The position numbers and the translations under genes are program-made. The notes below the pieces were generated by a model, which did not search any database, was not told the DNA's origin, and saw only the letters and a list, made by a program, of their open reading frames with translations. A stretch of DNA of 35,530 bases, taken from contig JAJPJR010000016.1 in the NCBI GenBank assembly GCA_021324165.1, positions 1-35,530 on the forward strand, given 5' to 3'. Position 1 is the first letter of the stretch; each line of letters begins with the position of its first letter. Shown here one piece after another: positions 1,881-13,298 of this stretch. The stretch comes from Armatimonadota bacterium. GTDB taxonomy: Bacteria > Armatimonadota > Fimbriimonadia > Fimbriimonadales > ATM1.

Positions 1881-2213
1881 TCCTCCCCCTGTGAGCGAAA
1901 GCGAACGGTGAAGGGGGTGTTCCGGGAAGCACCGACCCCCTTCCGGCGCTGCGCGCCACCTTCCCCCTAAATGCAGGGGGAAGGGTGGAGTCTTTCAATC
2001 CACGCTGCCTCCCCGATTCCACGCTGCCCCCTGGAAACAGGGGGAAGCCCCGTGAGCGGAGCGAACGGTGAAGGGGGTGTGCCAAAAGATGAACCCCCTT
2101 CCGGCGCTTCGCGCCACCTTCCCCCTAATGCAGGGGGAAGGATGGAAATTCAACTCCGCACCAACCCCCTTCCGGCGCTGCGCGCCACCTTCCCCCTAAA
2201 TGCAGGGGGAAGG
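1881..2213. repeat. array of GC-rich palindromic (REP-like) repeats
   Basis: This 343-base gap between the immunity gene and the globin gene holds no gene but a repeat array. A ~50-base unit occurs three times in the same orientation (1935-1984, 2093-2141, 2164-2213). Each copy has a small hairpin GGCGC/GCGCC with a 3-base loop (a shortened version in the middle copy) and a larger one with perfect 10-base arms CCTTCCCCCT/AGGGGGAAGG and a 5-6-base loop (1959-1984, 2117-2141, 2188-2213). Two shorter units containing gaacggtgaagggggtgt (1881-1920, 2045-2080) resemble the reverse complement of part of it. A further hairpin CCCCCTG-GAAA-CAGGGGG lies at 2027-2044. The array sits at the 3' ends of two convergent genes, so it could stop transcription from both sides, but there are no T-tracts. 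It may be a family of dispersed mobile repeats. Confidence 0.85.
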
Positions 2214-2222
2214 ACGGGCAGT

Positions 2223-3104
2223 TTATTTTTTGACGATGTCTTTCTTCGTGGAACCCACAATCGCGAACAACTCTTTCTGCTCGCGCTCGGGAACGTTGAA
2301 CTTGTTCAGCACGTTCGCAAGGATTTTGGCCGCCGATTCCCACTCCTTTTCGGTGATCCCGAGGTCTTTGTGAGCAACGGCCATTTTGCGGCCGGAATAT
2401 TTTTGCGGACCGCCTGCCGCCTGGCACAGCTGCTCCGTAACCAGATACTTCAACCCTGCGGCGGTGATTTTGCCGGTCTGCAGCGATTTGACCGTGTTCG
2501 GGTTGGAAAGGAGCACCGGGTCTTGCGCAAGCTCATTCACGAACTCATCCACAACCGCGGCGATTGCGTCTACACCGCCCAACCGCGCATACAACGATTC
2601 CGGTTTGACATTCGGAACGTTCGACTTCCCTTTCCGGTTTGGATCCACGTTCACCACGTCTTTCTTCGTGCCTGCGACGAACGCGAGCAGTTCATTCTGC
2701 TCGGGCTTGGGAACGTTCATCGCGTCCATCGAGGCAATAAAGTCGGCCGCCGAAGCGTTCCACTCTTCCTCGGTGATCCCAAGATCCTTGTGGGCGGCCA
2801 CCAGGTCTTTGCCGACATATTTCTGCGGCCCGCCGGTCATTTGACACACGAACGCGGTTACCTGAAACTTGAGCGCGGGCGCGCCATGTTTTTTGACCGC
2901 TTCCATCACCTTTGGGTTGCCGGCCACGGCCTCGTCGCCCGCCACGCGGTTCACGAAATCGTCAATCAGCGCCGCAATCTTGTGCACGCCGCCAAGCCTT
3001 TCGTACAGCGGCTTCTGCTTCGGTTTGGGCTTATCGTAATCGTATTGAGCGAACGCTCCCACCGCGCAGACGATCAGCGCGGCCGCAACTAAAGTTTTCT
3101 TCAT
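2223..3104 (-). CDS. exported two-domain truncated hemoglobin (group I-like)
   Basis: A 293-residue protein with an N-terminal signal peptide (Lys-Lys, hydrophobic core, AFAQ end, about residues 1-20). Two homologous globin domains follow, at about 33-152 and 170-291. Both repeat the group I truncated-globin pattern: LYxRLGGV at the A/B helices, TGGPQKY or AGGPQKY, then AHKDLGIT with the proximal heme His (H105 and H245), then a tail ending VPxxEQxEL. Both also carry one Cys in the E-helix region (C87, C227). The usual B10 Tyr position appears replaced in both (DDFVNRV, DEFVNEL), so ligand chemistry may differ from TrHbN. Known group I globins bind O2 or NO as single domains in the cytosol; a tandem exported form is unusual. 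AAAGGAG lies 9 bases before the ATG. It is divergent from the CADD-like gene at 3248. Confidence 0.85.
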   Translation of the reverse strand: MKKTLVAAALIVCAVGAFAQYDYDKPKPKQKPLYERLGGVHKIAALIDDFVNRVAGDEAVAGNPKVMEAVKKHGAPALKFQVTAFVCQMTGGPQKYVGKDLVAAHKDLGITEEEWNASAADFIASMDAMNVPKPEQNELLAFVAGTKKDVVNVDPNRKGKSNVPNVKPESLYARLGGVDAIAAVVDEFVNELAQDPVLLSNPNTVKSLQTGKITAAGLKYLVTEQLCQAAGGPQKYSGRKMAVAHKDLGITEKEWESAAKILANVLNKFNVPEREQKELFAIVGSTKKDIVKK

Positions 3105-3156: not shown

Positions 3157-3247
3157 GTTCGATGAATTTACCGCCAATCACGTGCGAATCTCCGGGCGGG
3201 TGTGCCAAGATTCCGTGAACGCCAAACCAGGGAGGAATTGCGACACC

Positions 3248-3847
3248 ATGACAACCAAACAGCGGCTGGACGCCATCATTTCGAGATACGACCTGTTGAA
3301 TCACCCTTTCTATAAGGCTTGGAACGAAGGCACTCTTCCTGTCGAAGCCCTGAAGATTTACGCCGAGGAGTACGGCGCGTTTGTGGGGATCATCGCCGAC
3401 GGATGGGAGACGCTGGGCAGCAAGCAGTACGCCGACGAAGAGCGGTACCACGTGAGTTTGTGGTCGAAATTTGCCGAAAGTTTGGGAACCGAAGCGGCCG
3501 ATGGAAGGCTGCCGGAGACGCAGCACCTTTTGACCGAGTGCAGGCAGAACTTCGCGACGCCTGAGACGGCGGCGGGGGCGATGTACGCCTTCGAGGTTCA
3601 GCAGCCGGAGACTTCAAAATCGAAGATCGCGGGTTTGCGGGAGCATTACAGTTTGGGTGAAGAGGCTGAGGTTTACTTTCACGAGCACACCGCGAATCAG
3701 CACGAAACGCGGGCGCTGTTGAACCGGATGGCAGCGATGAACGCCGACGCGCAAGACAAGGCGGTGGAGGCTTGCGAAAGGACGGCGAAAGCGATGTGGG
3801 ACGCCCTGTCGGGGATTCAGCGCACGGTTCCTGAGTCTGTGTGTTAG
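3248..3847 (+). CDS. CADD-like heme-oxygenase-fold protein, candidate self-sacrificing p-aminobenzoate synthase
   Basis: A 199-residue protein of the TenA/PqqC/CADD (heme-oxygenase-like dimetal oxidase) fold. The ATG at 3248 is chosen because GGAGG lies at 3231-3235. The N-terminus (LLNHPFYKAWNEGTL) and centre (YAFEVQQP, KIAGL, VYFHEH) resemble Chlamydia CADD as I recall it. Metal ligands expected in CADD are present in part: E64 or E65, H68, E116, H145 and H152; the last two keep the seven-residue spacing of the CADD His pair, but the Asp between them seems to be Ala149. Y22 matches the CADD tyrosine that is cleaved to give p-aminobenzoate, and K126 the lysine thought to donate the amine. 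A folate-precursor role is therefore plausible but inferred; another redox role is possible. Its stop overlaps the convergent atpG stop by 4 bases. Confidence 0.7.
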   Translation: MTTKQRLDAIISRYDLLNHPFYKAWNEGTLPVEALKIYAEEYGAFVGIIADGWETLGSKQYADEERYHVSLWSKFAESLGTEAADGRLPETQHLLTECRQNFATPETAAGAMYAFEVQQPETSKSKIAGLREHYSLGEEAEVYFHEHTANQHETRALLNRMAAMNADAQDKAVEACERTAKAMWDALSGIQRTVPESVC

Positions 3848-4701
3848 CCTTTCAGCGCATCGGCGCCGGCGACGATCTCGAGAATCTCTTTGGTGATCGC
3901 GGCTTGGCGCGTGCGGTTGGCTTGAAGGGTTAGGGTTTTCACGAGTTCGGCGGCGCTGTCGGTGGCGTTGGTCATCGCGGTCATGCGGGCTCCGTGTTCG
4001 CTTGCGGTGGATTCGAGCAGCGCCTGCTGGATGAGCGTGAGCGCGTAGCGCGGAAGAAGTTCGGCAAGAAGCTCGGTGGAATCGGGCTCGAAGGTGTACG
4101 CTTTGGTCTGCACTTCGTCAGTTTGGGCGGGCGGTTCGATCGGCAGAAGCTGCACGACCTGCGGCACCTGTCTTATGGCAGAGATGAATTTGCTGTAAAT
4201 GAGATAGACGGCGTCGAGTTCACCCGATAGGAACAGTTTTTCGGCAGCATCCATGACGTCGGTTGCGTGGGCCTTTGTGGGTCCTGCCGTGGGGAGATTC
4301 AGTTGGTACGCGACGTTGTATCCGCGCTTTTCGAAAAACTGTTGTCCTTTGCGGCCAACGCACAGGAACACCGGCTCACCCGATTCGGAGCGCACGAAAT
4401 CGAACGCTTTTCGGTTGAGGGCGGAGTTGAACGACCCGCACAAGCCGCGTTCTGCGGTGACCAGAACCACGCCGTACCGTTTGATCTCTCTGCGGGCTAA
4501 GAGCGGGTGGTCGGGCAGGTCGCCCGCATTGGCGAGGCTTTGCACGAGTTCGCGCATTTTGTCGGAATACGGTCTGGCTTCGAGCACGCGGTCTTGTGCG
4601 CGGCGCAATCGGGCCGCGGCCACGAGTTTCATAGCCCGCGTTATTTGGCCGATGGTTTTTGCCGTTCGGATTCGGCCCCTAAGCTGTTTGAGGCTTGCCA
4701 T
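3844..4701 (-). CDS. atpG: ATP synthase F1 subunit gamma
   Basis: 285 residues, normal for the rotor shaft of F1. The N-terminal helix (KQLRGRIRTAKTIGQITRAMK) and the C-terminal helix (AMTNATDSAAELVKTLTLQ, then RQAAITKEILEIVAGA) are the two long helices that form the coiled coil turning inside the alpha3beta3 ring. The middle has the expected ERGLCGSFN segment. It follows atpA by 3 bases and is the last gene of the cluster. No beta (atpD) or epsilon (atpC) gene follows; instead the convergent CADD-like gene ends here, overlapping its stop by 4 bases. The partners that gamma needs must therefore be encoded elsewhere. Confidence 0.97.
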   Translation of the reverse strand: MASLKQLRGRIRTAKTIGQITRAMKLVAAARLRRAQDRVLEARPYSDKMRELVQSLANAGDLPDHPLLARREIKRYGVVLVTAERGLCGSFNSALNRKAFDFVRSESGEPVFLCVGRKGQQFFEKRGYNVAYQLNLPTAGPTKAHATDVMDAAEKLFLSGELDAVYLIYSKFISAIRQVPQVVQLLPIEPPAQTDEVQTKAYTFEPDSTELLAELLPRYALTLIQQALLESTASEHGARMTAMTNATDSAAELVKTLTLQANRTRQAAITKEILEIVAGADALKG

Positions 4702-9267: not shown

Positions 9268-10341
9268 ATGCTGGTTTGCGCGGCGGCGGTTTTTGTGAGC
9301 GGATGGCAGTCATCGGAGGTCAGGCTGGAAACCTCGCCAGGGCTTGCGACATTGAGCATGCGTCTTTCGGCTTCTCCGCTGAATCCGCCGCATTTTCCGC
9401 CGGGAGTACCGGAAGGTTATGCGTTTGCTGCGGAGGGGTTTCAGAATGGGGAGAAAAGATTTGAGGTGTATGCGCAGACCGCCGAAAGGCTGCCCCTTTG
9501 CGCGAAAGTGTGCCGGACGCTGCTTCGGCTTTGGTCGCTGGCGCACGAAAAGATGGGCCTCGACCACTCCCGCATCCATTCCTATCTTGTGGAGGTGTAC
9601 CTGACGGAATCGGGATTGGCGGGAGGTGAGCAGAAGTCTGTGACTCAGCTGACCGAGGGCGGAGTCCCCCGCCAGCACAACTGCATTTTCGTTTATCGGA
9701 TGGAAAGTTTCACCAAGCCGATGGAGATGCTTCGGGAGATCGCGCACGAATACGGGCACGCGATCATGCCTCCGATCGGAGGGTTTTCGAAGCCGGAGGA
9801 GTGGGGCAACGGATATTTGGGGGAGAATCTGTTTGTGCAGATGCTTTGCGACACCCCCGATCCGGCGATGGCGTGGGGCGAAGACACCTTGGGGGTTTCA
9901 AAAGAGATGGCAGAGCGGTGGCGGGCGCAGAACGGACTGCCGAAATCCGACGCGGTGTGGATTCACGGCGCGGATGAGAAACTGTTGGAAGGGAGCGGCA
10001 TCGAGGCGATGAACGCATACATCGGCCTGATGCTTTTTGCTCAAGAAGCGTTTCCGAGCCTGTTTGCGCGCATGCTTGCGCTTGCGGGAGGTCAGCGCGC
10101 GAGCGATGCGCTGAGCGGAGTGATTGCGGCGATCGGCGAACAGGACCGGGTTGTGGTGAGGATTCCCGAGCGGCTGAAGGGGAGGCCGATCTGGCTGCCG
10201 CTTCGCGGCGCATGGGATTTTTCGGGTGCGAAACAGACGGCCCGCAAGCGCAACTGGATCAAGATCGCGCCCACATCGAACGTGGTGACATTGACGAATC
10301 ATCATGAGCAGGCGGGAGGGCAGCAACCGTTTTTGCCATGA
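9268..10341 (+). CDS. putative exported zinc metallopeptidase (HEYGH motif)
   Basis: 357 residues. The N-terminus has a short hydrophobic stretch (about 2-12) that may be a weak signal sequence. HEYGH at 160-164 fits the HExxH zinc site, and E186 in NGYLGENLF is a fair third ligand as in gluzincins; both are inferences from pattern. No known family is recognised over the whole length, so the substrate is unknown. The region around ARMLALAGGQRASDALSG looks helical. The ATG is preceded by TAGACT at 6 bases. The stop overlaps the start of the following Fe-S gene by 4 bases (ATGA), so the two are co-translated, though no functional link is evident. Confidence 0.6.
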   Translation: MLVCAAAVFVSGWQSSEVRLETSPGLATLSMRLSASPLNPPHFPPGVPEGYAFAAEGFQNGEKRFEVYAQTAERLPLCAKVCRTLLRLWSLAHEKMGLDHSRIHSYLVEVYLTESGLAGGEQKSVTQLTEGGVPRQHNCIFVYRMESFTKPMEMLREIAHEYGHAIMPPIGGFSKPEEWGNGYLGENLFVQMLCDTPDPAMAWGEDTLGVSKEMAERWRAQNGLPKSDAVWIHGADEKLLEGSGIEAMNAYIGLMLFAQEAFPSLFARMLALAGGQRASDALSGVIAAIGEQDRVVVRIPERLKGRPIWLPLRGAWDFSGAKQTARKRNWIKIAPTSNVVTLTNHHEQAGGQQPFLP

Positions 10342-12347
10342 ACGAGGTTCCAACACGCACGGAGTTTCTGTTTTTGCCCGCGTGGCAGATTGCCGCGTTT
10401 TATCTGTTGATGGCGGCAAGCGTGCTCATTTTGGGAATTCAGATCGCCCAGCGCATTAGGGTTTGGATGCGCGGCGAAAAAGTTTCGTGGACGCCGGACT
10501 ATTTGGGCGGCATCGCAAAGTTTGTTCTTGCGCAACGAAAAGTGAAGAGCTCGCGACCGAAAAGCGGGGCTCCGATGCATCTTCTGATTTTTTACGGATT
10601 TTTGACGCTGTTTTTGGCGACGACTCTGCTTGCGATCAACACGTATTCGCCGTGGAAGTTTCACAAGGGCGCATATTATTTAACTTATGAATGGATCGCC
10701 GACGTGATGGGTTTGGGTTTTGTGATCGGAGTTGTGTGGGCGCTGTTTCGCAGACTGTTTTGGAGGCCGCGCGCGCTCACCCAAGCCCCGCCCGATTATT
10801 GGACGTTGATTCTGCTTCTGGCGCTTGGAGTTTCCGGCTTCGTTTTGGAAGCGTTTCGGATGAGCGCGAATCCGCACTGGTTTGACACGTCGGCGCCGAT
10901 CGGATATGCGATTTCGCGTTGGATCGGAACGATTTCGCCGCAGGCGTATGTGGCGTTTTGGTGGTTTCACGTGTTTTTGGTCGCCGGTTTTTTGATGGTG
11001 ATTCCGCGATTGCGTTTGCGGCACATTCTGTTTGCGATTTTTTCGACTGCGGGAGCCGATCCGAACGCGAAAATGGGTGCGCTGGCACCGCTGAGCATCG
11101 AAGATGTGGAGAGGACAGGACGGATCGGAGTGAGCGTGAAGAACGACTATTCGCGCTGGCATTTGATGTCGCTGGATGCGTGCATGGAGTGCGGAAGGTG
11201 CACCGAAGTTTGTCCGGCAAATTTGGCCGGAAAGATTTTAAACCCGAAAAAACTGGTGCAGGATATCCGCGGGATTCGGGATTCCGAAACCACCGTCGCT
11301 TCTGCCGTAAGCGAAGAGGCGCTGTGGGCATGCACAACGTGCAACGCGTGCGTCGAGGCGTGCCCTGTGCTGATTCGGCATGTGGATTTGATCGTTGATG
11401 CAAGGCGCAGCCTGGTTGCGGATAACAGGCTCGCAGGCAGCGCAGCGACGATGCTTCGTCAGCTGCAATCCACCGAAAGTTCGTGGGGGACTCCTTCGGC
11501 GGAACGCGAAAAATGGATGGAAGGATGCGACGTTCCTTTGGCGCGCGATTTGGCGGCAAGAGGCGAAACGTTTGAGGTTTTGGTGTGGGTGGGCTGCGCC
11601 GGAGCGATTGACGCAAACGCGATGAAAACCACGCGGGCGTTGGTATCGCTTCTGAAAAAAGCAGGCGTGAAGTTTGCGTGCCTTGGAATCGAGGAACGGT
11701 GCACTGGGGATTCGGCTCGGCGCATCGGCGATGAGTTTCTGTTTCAGCAGATGGCGCAGCAGAACATTGAAACGTTTGAAAAATACGGAGTGAAGAAGCT
11801 TCTAACGGCGTGCCCACACTGCTTTAATACGTTGAAGAACGAATATCCCCAGTTCCGCGGCGAATATGAGGTGATGCATCACACGCAGTTCATCGCGCGT
11901 TTGGTTGAAAGCGGCAGATTGCGCGCGCCGAAACTGCGCAATGGCGAAGTAACGATTCACGACCCGTGCTATTTGGCGCGGATCAACGGCGAAGTGGATG
12001 CTCAACGCATCGCGCTGGGGAGCGCATCGAGCGAAAACCGATATGAAACGCCGATGGGAAAATGGCTGAACGAACCGCTGGAGAATCCGGTTCGGATTGC
12101 AGAGCCCGAACACCGCGGAGTGAAAACGTTGTGCTGCGGAGCGGGCGGCGGACGAATGTGGATGGAAGAATCGGCCGATGAGCGCCCCAGCACGAACCGT
12201 TGGAACGAGCTGAAACAGACCGGCGCAGAAACGGTCGCCGTCGCGTGTCCTTTTTGCAGAATTATGCTGGATGCGGGCAAAGATGCCGAGAACCTGATTC
12301 GGTTGAAAGACATCGCCGAGATTGTTCACGAGGCGAACTGTGATTAA
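10338..12347 (+). CDS. membrane Fe-S oxidoreductase, FadF/EtfAB:menaquinone-oxidoreductase-like
   Basis: 669 residues. The N-terminal ~230 residues hold about six membrane helices like the cytochrome b-type NarI domain. Then come two 4Fe-4S sites, C282-x2-C285-x2-C288-x3-C292 and C332-x2-C335-x2-C338-x3-C342. The C-terminal half has two CCG domains as in heterodisulfide reductase HdrB/GlpC: one with GCAGAID (C420), ERCTGD and CPHCFNTLKNEYP, one with HDPCYLAR, C599-C600 in LCCGAGGG and CPFC (C637, C640). This domain order matches Bacillus YwjF/FadF, proposed to pass electrons from acyl-CoA dehydrogenases via ETF to menaquinone. That role is inferred; no etf or acad gene is in the window. acpS starts inside its last codons, which fits lipid metabolism. 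Confidence 0.85.
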   Translation: MNEVPTRTEFLFLPAWQIAAFYLLMAASVLILGIQIAQRIRVWMRGEKVSWTPDYLGGIAKFVLAQRKVKSSRPKSGAPMHLLIFYGFLTLFLATTLLAINTYSPWKFHKGAYYLTYEWIADVMGLGFVIGVVWALFRRLFWRPRALTQAPPDYWTLILLLALGVSGFVLEAFRMSANPHWFDTSAPIGYAISRWIGTISPQAYVAFWWFHVFLVAGFLMVIPRLRLRHILFAIFSTAGADPNAKMGALAPLSIEDVERTGRIGVSVKNDYSRWHLMSLDACMECGRCTEVCPANLAGKILNPKKLVQDIRGIRDSETTVASAVSEEALWACTTCNACVEACPVLIRHVDLIVDARRSLVADNRLAGSAATMLRQLQSTESSWGTPSAEREKWMEGCDVPLARDLAARGETFEVLVWVGCAGAIDANAMKTTRALVSLLKKAGVKFACLGIEERCTGDSARRIGDEFLFQQMAQQNIETFEKYGVKKLLTACPHCFNTLKNEYPQFRGEYEVMHHTQFIARLVESGRLRAPKLRNGEVTIHDPCYLARINGEVDAQRIALGSASSENRYETPMGKWLNEPLENPVRIAEPEHRGVKTLCCGAGGGRMWMEESADERPSTNRWNELKQTGAETVAVACPFCRIMLDAGKDAENLIRLKDIAEIVHEANCD

Positions 12348-12720
12348 AGGTGTTGGGATTGATGTGGTTGAAGTGGTTCGAATCGAACGGGCGATGCAAA
12401 ACCCGCGCTTTGTGGTGCGCGTTCTTACCGAAAGGGAGCGGGAGGGGCGTTTGGATGCCGCGTTCGTTGCCGGGCGGTGGGCCGCAAAGGAGGCGGTTGC
12501 AAAGGCCACGGGAGTGCCGATGAGCTGGCAGGATGTTGAGATCGTGAATCTTTCCGATGGAACGCCGAAAGTTGTTTTGCGGCAGAATCGAAAAATGGAT
12601 GACAAGACGATGATCGCTCCATCGGCGCTGTTCCGCGCGGAGCAGATCGCCGAAGAGATTCATATTTCGATATCACACGAAAGAGGGATCGCTGCGGCGA
12701 TTGCGATTTGGGAAGGATGA
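12340..12720 (+). CDS. acpS: holo-[acyl-carrier-protein] synthase
   Basis: 126 residues from the GTG at 12340. The enzyme transfers 4'-phosphopantetheine from CoA to apo-ACP. Both family motifs are present: GVGIDVVEVVRIER with the metal-binding Asp8 at the N-terminus, and VAGRWAAKEAVAKATG with the Glu of the second motif. ISISHERGIAAAIAI near the end is also typical. GAGG lies 6 bases before the GTG. It overlaps the Fe-S gene by 8 bases and purN by 4 (ATGA). A longer form from a TTG at 12322 would only add residues that do not fit the family. Confidence 0.95.
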   Translation: MIKGVGIDVVEVVRIERAMQNPRFVVRVLTEREREGRLDAAFVAGRWAAKEAVAKATGVPMSWQDVEIVNLSDGTPKVVLRQNRKMDDKTMIAPSALFRAEQIAEEIHISISHERGIAAAIAIWEG

Positions 12721-13298
12721 AGCGCGTGAGGATCGCCGTGTTCATCGGTCCGAAGGGGCGGGGATCGAACATGCGCGCGATTGTGGATGCGTGCAGGCAT
12801 GGACGGCTGCATGCCGATGTTGCGGCCGTTTACTGTTCGAATCCGGATTCACCGGCGATACAGAACCTTGAAATACCCGTGCGCGATCCTTTGAACCCGA
12901 ATCTGTTGGAGGATTTGCGGAATCTGCAAGTGGATTTGATCTGTTTGGCGGGATATCTGCGGCTGCTTCCCAGCGAAGTGGTCCACTCGTTTTCGGGAGC
13001 GATATTGAACATTCATCCGGCGTTGCTGCCGAAGTTCGGAGGCAAAGGGATGTACGGCGTTAGGGTTCATGAAGCGGTGCTGGCGGCGGGCGAAAAGGAG
13101 TCAGGCTGCACGGTGCATCTGGTAACCGAAAACTATGACGAGGGCCAGATTGTGCTGCAGAAAAAATGTCCGGTGCTGACCGGAGACACGCCTGAGAGTT
13201 TGGCTGAGCGGATTCTGCCGTTGGAGCACGAGGCGTATGTTGAAGCGATCCAGAACTGGATCGGCGCGCATCAGTCGGCGCGGAACGCATCTTTGTAA
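12717..13298 (+). CDS. purN: phosphoribosylglycinamide formyltransferase (GART)
   Basis: 193 residues. It formylates GAR with 10-formyl-tetrahydrofolate, step 3 of purine synthesis, in the cytosol. Visible: the phosphate-binding GRGSN loop (14-18), the catalytic Asn99 and His101 in NIHPALLPKFGG, and Asp141 in NYDEGQIV. The N-terminus reads FIGPKGRGSN rather than the common VLxSGxGSN, a small deviation. The start is the ATG inside the acpS stop (ATGA). Its 3' end overlaps the convergent yraN gene by 28 bases, leaving no room for a terminator. Confidence 0.93.
   Translation: MKRVRIAVFIGPKGRGSNMRAIVDACRHGRLHADVAAVYCSNPDSPAIQNLEIPVRDPLNPNLLEDLRNLQVDLICLAGYLRLLPSEVVHSFSGAILNIHPALLPKFGGKGMYGVRVHEAVLAAGEKESGCTVHLVTENYDEGQIVLQKKCPVLTGDTPESLAERILPLEHEAYVEAIQNWIGAHQSARNASL

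Follow-up and report, generated by a model that had tools for sequence, protein, structure and literature searches.

The 35,530-nt stretch of DNA analysed here, called the window, carries a gene for a short protein of the CADD family. We propose that this protein is a compact CADD/PabS-type, self-sacrificing and O2-dependent p-aminobenzoate (pABA) synthase with a remodelled metal site, which supplies the pABA for folate in place of PabB and PabC, and we put the probability of this reading at about 0.78. The reading is built on observations: the sequence pattern of the protein, its predicted fold, and PabB being replaced across genomes. In the literature cited here (PMC11965152, PMC13108848), two self-sacrificing pABA synthases are known biochemically, and it is unsettled there how their metal site initiates the cleavage of the tyrosine.

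The gene and its convergent neighbour were placed in the window as follows.

3248 to 3847, plus strand: compact CADD-like gene (self-sacrificing pABA synthase type), 199 aa, ATG start, stop codon included.
3844 to 4701, minus strand: atpG, gamma subunit of F1 ATP synthase, assigned with Pfam and NCBIfam; convergent neighbour, given as context and outside the system.

A GTG at 3182, 66 bases upstream of the ATG, opens a longer mechanical ORF; the start region of compact relatives aligned with the ATG. The gene was found as a single copy in a genome of 2.33 Mb, of which the window is contig C45. The protein matched the CADD family model of NCBIfam, TIGR04305, with an E value of 1.9e-32 and 112.6 bits, short of the curated cut-off of 200 bits, and it matched the heme-oxygenase-like helical bundle of Pfam, PF14518, above the cut-off (E 3.5e-12). 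When the PDB was searched by sequence, the significant matches were pABA synthases only: NePabS of Nitrosomonas europaea (NE1434; 9pj4, E 6e-19) at the top, and CtCADD of Chlamydia trachomatis (CT610; 1rcw, E 8.6e-13, and 8va9). The AF2 model of the protein (pLDDT 92.5, pTM 0.90) was closest in fold to CtCADD (1rcw, 8va9, 8vag), with a Z score of 25.2 and an rmsd of 1.8 over 191 residues at 24% identity, and HrmI was the second-ranked protein (Z 21.5). With good probability the window protein behaves as a CADD-type pABA synthase, a functional reading that has genome content as its basis.

When 113 genomes of the order were searched with a profile, 38 proved to have a CADD-like copy. Together with three loci titled Anaerolineales (L006-L008) and a partial second copy in genome G107, these made up a compact set of 42 proteins of 192-204 aa (171 aa in the partial copy). 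They were compared with 15 full-length CADD-type proteins of 217-238 aa (L009-L015 and L113-L120) from the window's phylum, Rickettsia, Pelagibacteraceae, Dehalococcoidia and others. In a tree with the PqqC-like L121 as outgroup, the compact forms were one clade (SH-aLRT 100) nested among the full-length forms. The two copies of G107 lie about 4 kb apart in L081 (G107 C2, 3943-4458 and 8009-8599) and are identical over the first ~160 residues, after which the first copy diverges and stops early, resembling a partial duplicate or a broken copy; added gene dosage could matter to an enzyme that works once.

Residues corresponding to those consumed or essential in the known synthases were located in the window protein.

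3311 to 3313, plus strand: Tyr22, proposed sacrificial tyrosine (CtCADD Y27, NePabS Y25).
3359 to 3361, plus strand: Tyr38, counterpart of NePabS Tyr41, which is essential in that protein (PMC11965152).
3623 to 3625, plus strand: Lys126, proposed sacrificial amino donor (CtCADD K152, NePabS K159).

An earlier, sequence-only reading had held that the Tyr and Lys of the self-sacrificing synthase are kept, and this was borne out: Y22 and K126 aligned with their counterparts and were invariant in the compact set, in which Y22, Y38, E65, H68, W72, F115, E116, Q118, K126, Y143, H147 and E153 were each found in 42 of 42 sequences. The same sacrificial residues were present in the full-length forms, all 15 of which had an FY..W motif around the tyrosine, and a motif of the [FY]E.{9}K..G type was shared by every compact and every full-length protein (42/42 and 15/15). 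The position of Y42 was Tyr in 34 and Trp in 8 of the 42 compact sequences. NePabS has Tyr41, Trp99 and Phe148 at the positions of Y38, W72 and F115 (PMC11965152); F115 is thus Phe as in NePabS, while Y143, which stands at NePabS F177, is Tyr as in CtCADD. Apart from the canonical spacing of the ligands, the parts on the protein side that are named for CtCADD and NePabS (here Y22, K126, Y38, Y42 and W72) were all present in the window protein.

The metal site was where the compact proteins departed from the known synthases, and the motifs proposed to form it are listed below.

3437 to 3451, plus strand: E64-E65-R-Y-H68, proposed first metal motif, EExxH replacing the canonical E-x6-H.
3590 to 3595, plus strand: F115-E116, metal-ligand Glu (CADD E142) with the adjoining aromatic residue (CADD Y141, NePabS F148), both 42/42.
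3674 to 3706, plus strand: Y143-F-x-x-H147-x-x-N150-x-x-E153, proposed second metal motif, Hxx[DN]xxE replacing HxxxDxxH.

The pattern EE..H..[LM]W was found in 41 of 42 compact and none of the 15 full-length proteins, the sole compact exception having S at the first E, whereas the canonical E.{6}H..[LM]W was found in all 15 full-length proteins and in no compact one. Likewise, YF..H..[DNK]..E was present in 42/42 compact and 0/15 full-length proteins, and [FY]FxxHxxxDxxH in 0/42 and 15/15. Both HDO 3H/3C ligand motifs, E-x6-H and HxxxDxxH, were therefore absent from all 42 compact sequences, the window protein having lost the pattern that CtCADD shows. Because it scored below the NCBIfam cut-off and also lacks the 3H/3C motif, the window protein was regarded as a variant of the CADD family and not as a plain member.

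When profiles of the compact and full-length forms were aligned with hhalign (E 8.9e-49), N150 came to stand opposite the canonical Asp and E153 opposite the last canonical His, with gaps in the compact forms of ~12 residues ahead of alpha-3, of 3 residues from EE to H, and of a single residue following H147. The likeness to CADD over the whole length, claimed from the sequence, was thus overstated, since these residues are missing; the window protein is also shorter than NePabS between alpha-2 and alpha-3. The AF2 models agreed with the shortened E...H motif: in full-length L014 (pLDDT 91.3) the helix is interrupted at this motif (65-80 and 85-95), whereas in the window protein one uninterrupted helix, 59-78, runs across E64/E65-H68.

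This alignment and the conservation changed the ligand assignment of the sequence-only reading. Its E64, E65, H68 and E116 stood (41, 42, 42 and 42 of 42), but H145 and H152 did not: H145 is unconserved and the ligand of YFxxH is H147, while H152 is His in only 20/42 and it is E153 that aligns with the last canonical His. A149, which had been placed at the Asp position, is also unconserved, and N150 takes that position. What had been described as a single Asp-to-Ala change is instead a rebuild across the clade, in which the spacing has shifted and Glu has taken the place of a His. The compact metal site would then consist of E64/E65, H68, E116, H147, D/N150 and E153, probably two His and four carboxylates in most members, compared with three His and three carboxylates in the canonical site. 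Position 150 was D in 30, N in 10 and K in 2 of the 42 sequences, and the window protein itself has N where most members have D.

In a survey of 150 HDO groups, E-H-X-H-D/E-H accounted for ~85% and ~9% had no confident motif (PMC11363339); the survey section of that paper does not name the pattern of the compact forms among its HDO motifs. Precedents for altered ligands in the HDO fold are FlcD, which has a mononuclear E-H-X-H-V-R site, and SznF, which has a 3H/4C site (PMC11363339, PMC13108848), but neither has the E-H-E-H-[D/N]-E of the compact clade with its shortened spacing. We give even odds to the wider proposal that the whole order has a compact self-sacrificing pABA synthase whose site was rebuilt from three His and three carboxylates to two His and four carboxylates, similar to a ferritin-type diiron site. 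If true, a different metal centre would drive the same cleavage of tyrosine, and a comparison of the two sites would show which ligands the radical chemistry truly requires. The 42 natural sequences, in which the sacrificial residues are kept and the metal ligands changed, would be a ready-made experiment on how cleavage is initiated.

The distribution of the gene was compared with those of PabB and folP (dihydropteroate synthase) in the 113 genomes of the order. PabB was separated from TrpE by match span, frame length and a short motif, which we took to be PMKGT for PabB and PIAGTR for TrpE. The PabB motif was present in all PabB calls checked for it (29 of 45), and the motif agreed with every span-based PabB/TrpE call that was checked; G110 and G112 were undecided by span and frame length. 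Over all 113 genomes, 1 had both the CADD-like gene and PabB, 37 the CADD-like gene only, 44 PabB only, and 31 neither. In the 85 genomes with folP, the counts were 1, 36, 42 and 6 (Fisher 1.4e-16, relatedness ignored), and in the 68 of these that were at least 90% complete they were 1, 33, 30 and 4. Neither gene was found in any of the 20 genomes without folP at the same completeness. These counts indicated that near-complete genomes with folP nearly always have one pABA gene.

Among the 38 carriers of the CADD-like gene, 37 were without PabB and 37 had folP; in G004, which is 86% complete, folP was undetected. The TrpE motif was found in 33 of the 38, and the other five were G027 with PabB, G039 and G077 with fragments only, and G040 and G051 with no match. 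The genomes are drafts, so absences may be assembly gaps; that of the window is 97.2% complete. A complete pabABC set, which the sequence-only reading had named as evidence against a CADD-type route, was looked for in this genome, and neither PabB nor a spare class-IV aminotransferase was found. Its one chorismate-binding gene is a TrpE, folP is present, and the lone class-IV aminotransferase is most likely IlvE, so that no PabC is evident. Genome content thus gives good support to the suggestion of a CADD-type pABA route outside Chlamydia, in that the gene replaces PabB in genomes with folP. As for CtCADD, no sign of its host-directed role was seen for the window protein, whose organism is presumably free-living.

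Nine genomes of the phylum with a full-length CADD gene serve as a positive control for this reading of genome content: seven showed TrpE only, G150 a partial match and G154 no match, and PabB was shown in none of the nine. Six genomes with folP had neither PabB nor the CADD-like gene (G009, G013, G020, G037, G046 and G090, four of them at least 94% complete); they may have another pABA route, take pABA up, or have genes that were missed. In the genomes of L006-L008, for which completeness is not stated, no TrpE or PabB match was found and folP was present in two of three. G014, of the window's order, is positive for PabB and negative for the CADD-like gene, and Fimbriimonas ginsengisoli is described as making folate via chorismate (PMC4072686). 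The sole genome of the order with both genes is G027, with PabB at C64:20659-21606 (PMKGT, 640-aa frame) and the compact gene at C112:16981-17553.

Kinship between the genomes was controlled for with a COX1 tree. Of 76 stretches taken, that of G066, a fragment, was removed, leaving 75 genomes: 31 with the CADD-like gene alone, 37 with PabB alone, 1 with both and 6 with neither. Outside the tree were G011, nearly all genomes without folP, and those in which COX1 was fragmentary or only divergent. The tree needed 13 changes between CADD-like and PabB, and for the CADD label its supported branches forced no fewer than 8. In nine independent contrasts, none went in the same direction, a mean of 7.2 went in opposite directions and 1.8 showed no difference (sign test, median p 0.016, range 0.008-0.06). 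The exclusion between the CADD-like gene and PabB keeps its direction after correction for kinship, with modest significance.

It is therefore most improbable that genomes with the CADD-like gene and those with PabB are merely separate branches and that their exclusivity has no functional meaning. The genus g41 is PabB throughout, many genera are uniform and the Fisher tests are blind to kinship, but families f1, f2 and f3 each contain both states, as does genus g12, and the changes and contrasts in the COX1 tree argue against such an artefact. We consider it just as far-fetched that the protein is a TenA/PqqC-like enzyme, or a heme-oxygenase-fold protein, with no role in pABA synthesis. Pfam TENA_THI-4 did match, weakly and below PF14518, and TenA and PqqC entries did appear in the fold lists, but at lower positions, and the top matches in sequence and structure are pABA synthases; CADD ranked above PqqC and TenA on both counts. 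The near-exclusive distribution with PabB and the dependence on folP speak against this alternative as well.

Other alternatives accept the role in pABA synthesis and differ in chemistry. A true catalyst making pABA from a free substrate, derived from tyrosine or chorismate, at the altered metal site would have the same support from genome content and would suit a metal site rebuilt throughout the compact clade. We consider it improbable, because the two sacrificial residues, like the essential second Tyr, do not vary in any of the 42 sequences, for which there is no obvious need with a free substrate. A less distant, though still unlikely, alternative is a mononuclear or metal-poor variant in which the pABA reaction runs on one metal at E116/H147/H68, with E153 and N150 structural. 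FlcD, a mononuclear HDO protein with an altered motif for the last three ligands, is a precedent (PMC11363339), and D is replaced by N or K at position 150 in 12/42; against it, six candidate ligand positions are left, mostly invariant carboxylates or His.

For the preferred reading, a self-sacrificing synthase, we infer the chemistry, the use of O2 and the identity of the metal-binding residues. By analogy with CtCADD and NePabS, the metal site in the heme-oxygenase-like bundle would react with O2, and the oxidising equivalent would travel via aromatic residues to Y22. The side chain of Y22 would then be cleaved off as the aromatic ring, K126 would donate the amino group, and each protein molecule would perform one turnover. 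For the two known proteins it has been shown or proposed that reduced metals and O2 give a radical at the sacrificial Tyr ~14 Å away, that the Tyr side chain is released leaving Gly, that Lys is the amine source, and that the carboxylate oxygens of pABA come from O2 (PMC11965152, PMC13108848); in used NePabS, Tyr is converted to Gly and Lys to aminoadipate (PMC11965152). COX1 was found in 109 of the 113 genomes of the order, including that of the window, so O2 is available. An O2-free version of the reaction, considered because of the Anaerolineales titles of L006-L008, was dropped in view of this result and of COX1 in two of the three L006-L008 genomes. In NePabS, the F177Y substitution moves the preference from Fe/Fe to Mn/Fe (PMC11965152). 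Because the F115/Y143 pair is the pair of this variant, our guess is that the window protein may prefer Mn/Fe, a conjecture weakened by the altered ligands.

The results would add an order of aerobic bacteria (probably Fimbriimonadales of Armatimonadota) to the known range of this pABA route, which in that order alternates with PabB between genomes. Annotation of folate synthesis limited to PabABC would miscall the carriers as pABA auxotrophs.

The copies titled Anaerolineales fell within the compact clade, at a precise position without firm support. Their titles had at first suggested Anaerolineales for the window's order as well. Between L007 and L008, rpoB identity was 73%, and each was 42-52% identical in rpoB to nine members of the window's phylum; identity among members of that phylum was 47-77%, a range that overlaps that of L007/L008. 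No rpoB match was found in the genome of L006. The rpoB comparison fits a separate phylum for L007 and L008, though the ranges overlap, and transfer of the compact gene between phyla is therefore likely, as judged from these sequences.

No widespread recurring neighbour of the CADD-like gene, and no link to a folate gene, was found in 41 stretches. Genes similar to those of ATP synthase, identified by eye, recurred in four stretches, as they do in the window; given the missing folate link, we put this down to chance or to a shared order of genes. In L085 (G042 C93:30685-32386), the CADD-like gene adjoins trpE on the opposite strand. In the window, a protein with a formyl transferase domain (12708-13298, Pfam Formyl_trans_N), possibly the folate-using PurN, is encoded 9 kb from the pABA gene. 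The contig starts with an RHS repeat protein with an RHS-associated core domain (34-1224; TIGR03696, 1.1e-18), followed by two ORFs with no Pfam or NCBIfam matches (1214-1879 and 1971-3092). A 357-aa ORF without family matches (9268-10341) adjoins a gene for a 669-aa protein (10338-12347) with 4Fe-4S and two cysteine-rich CCG domains, similar to heterodisulfide reductase.
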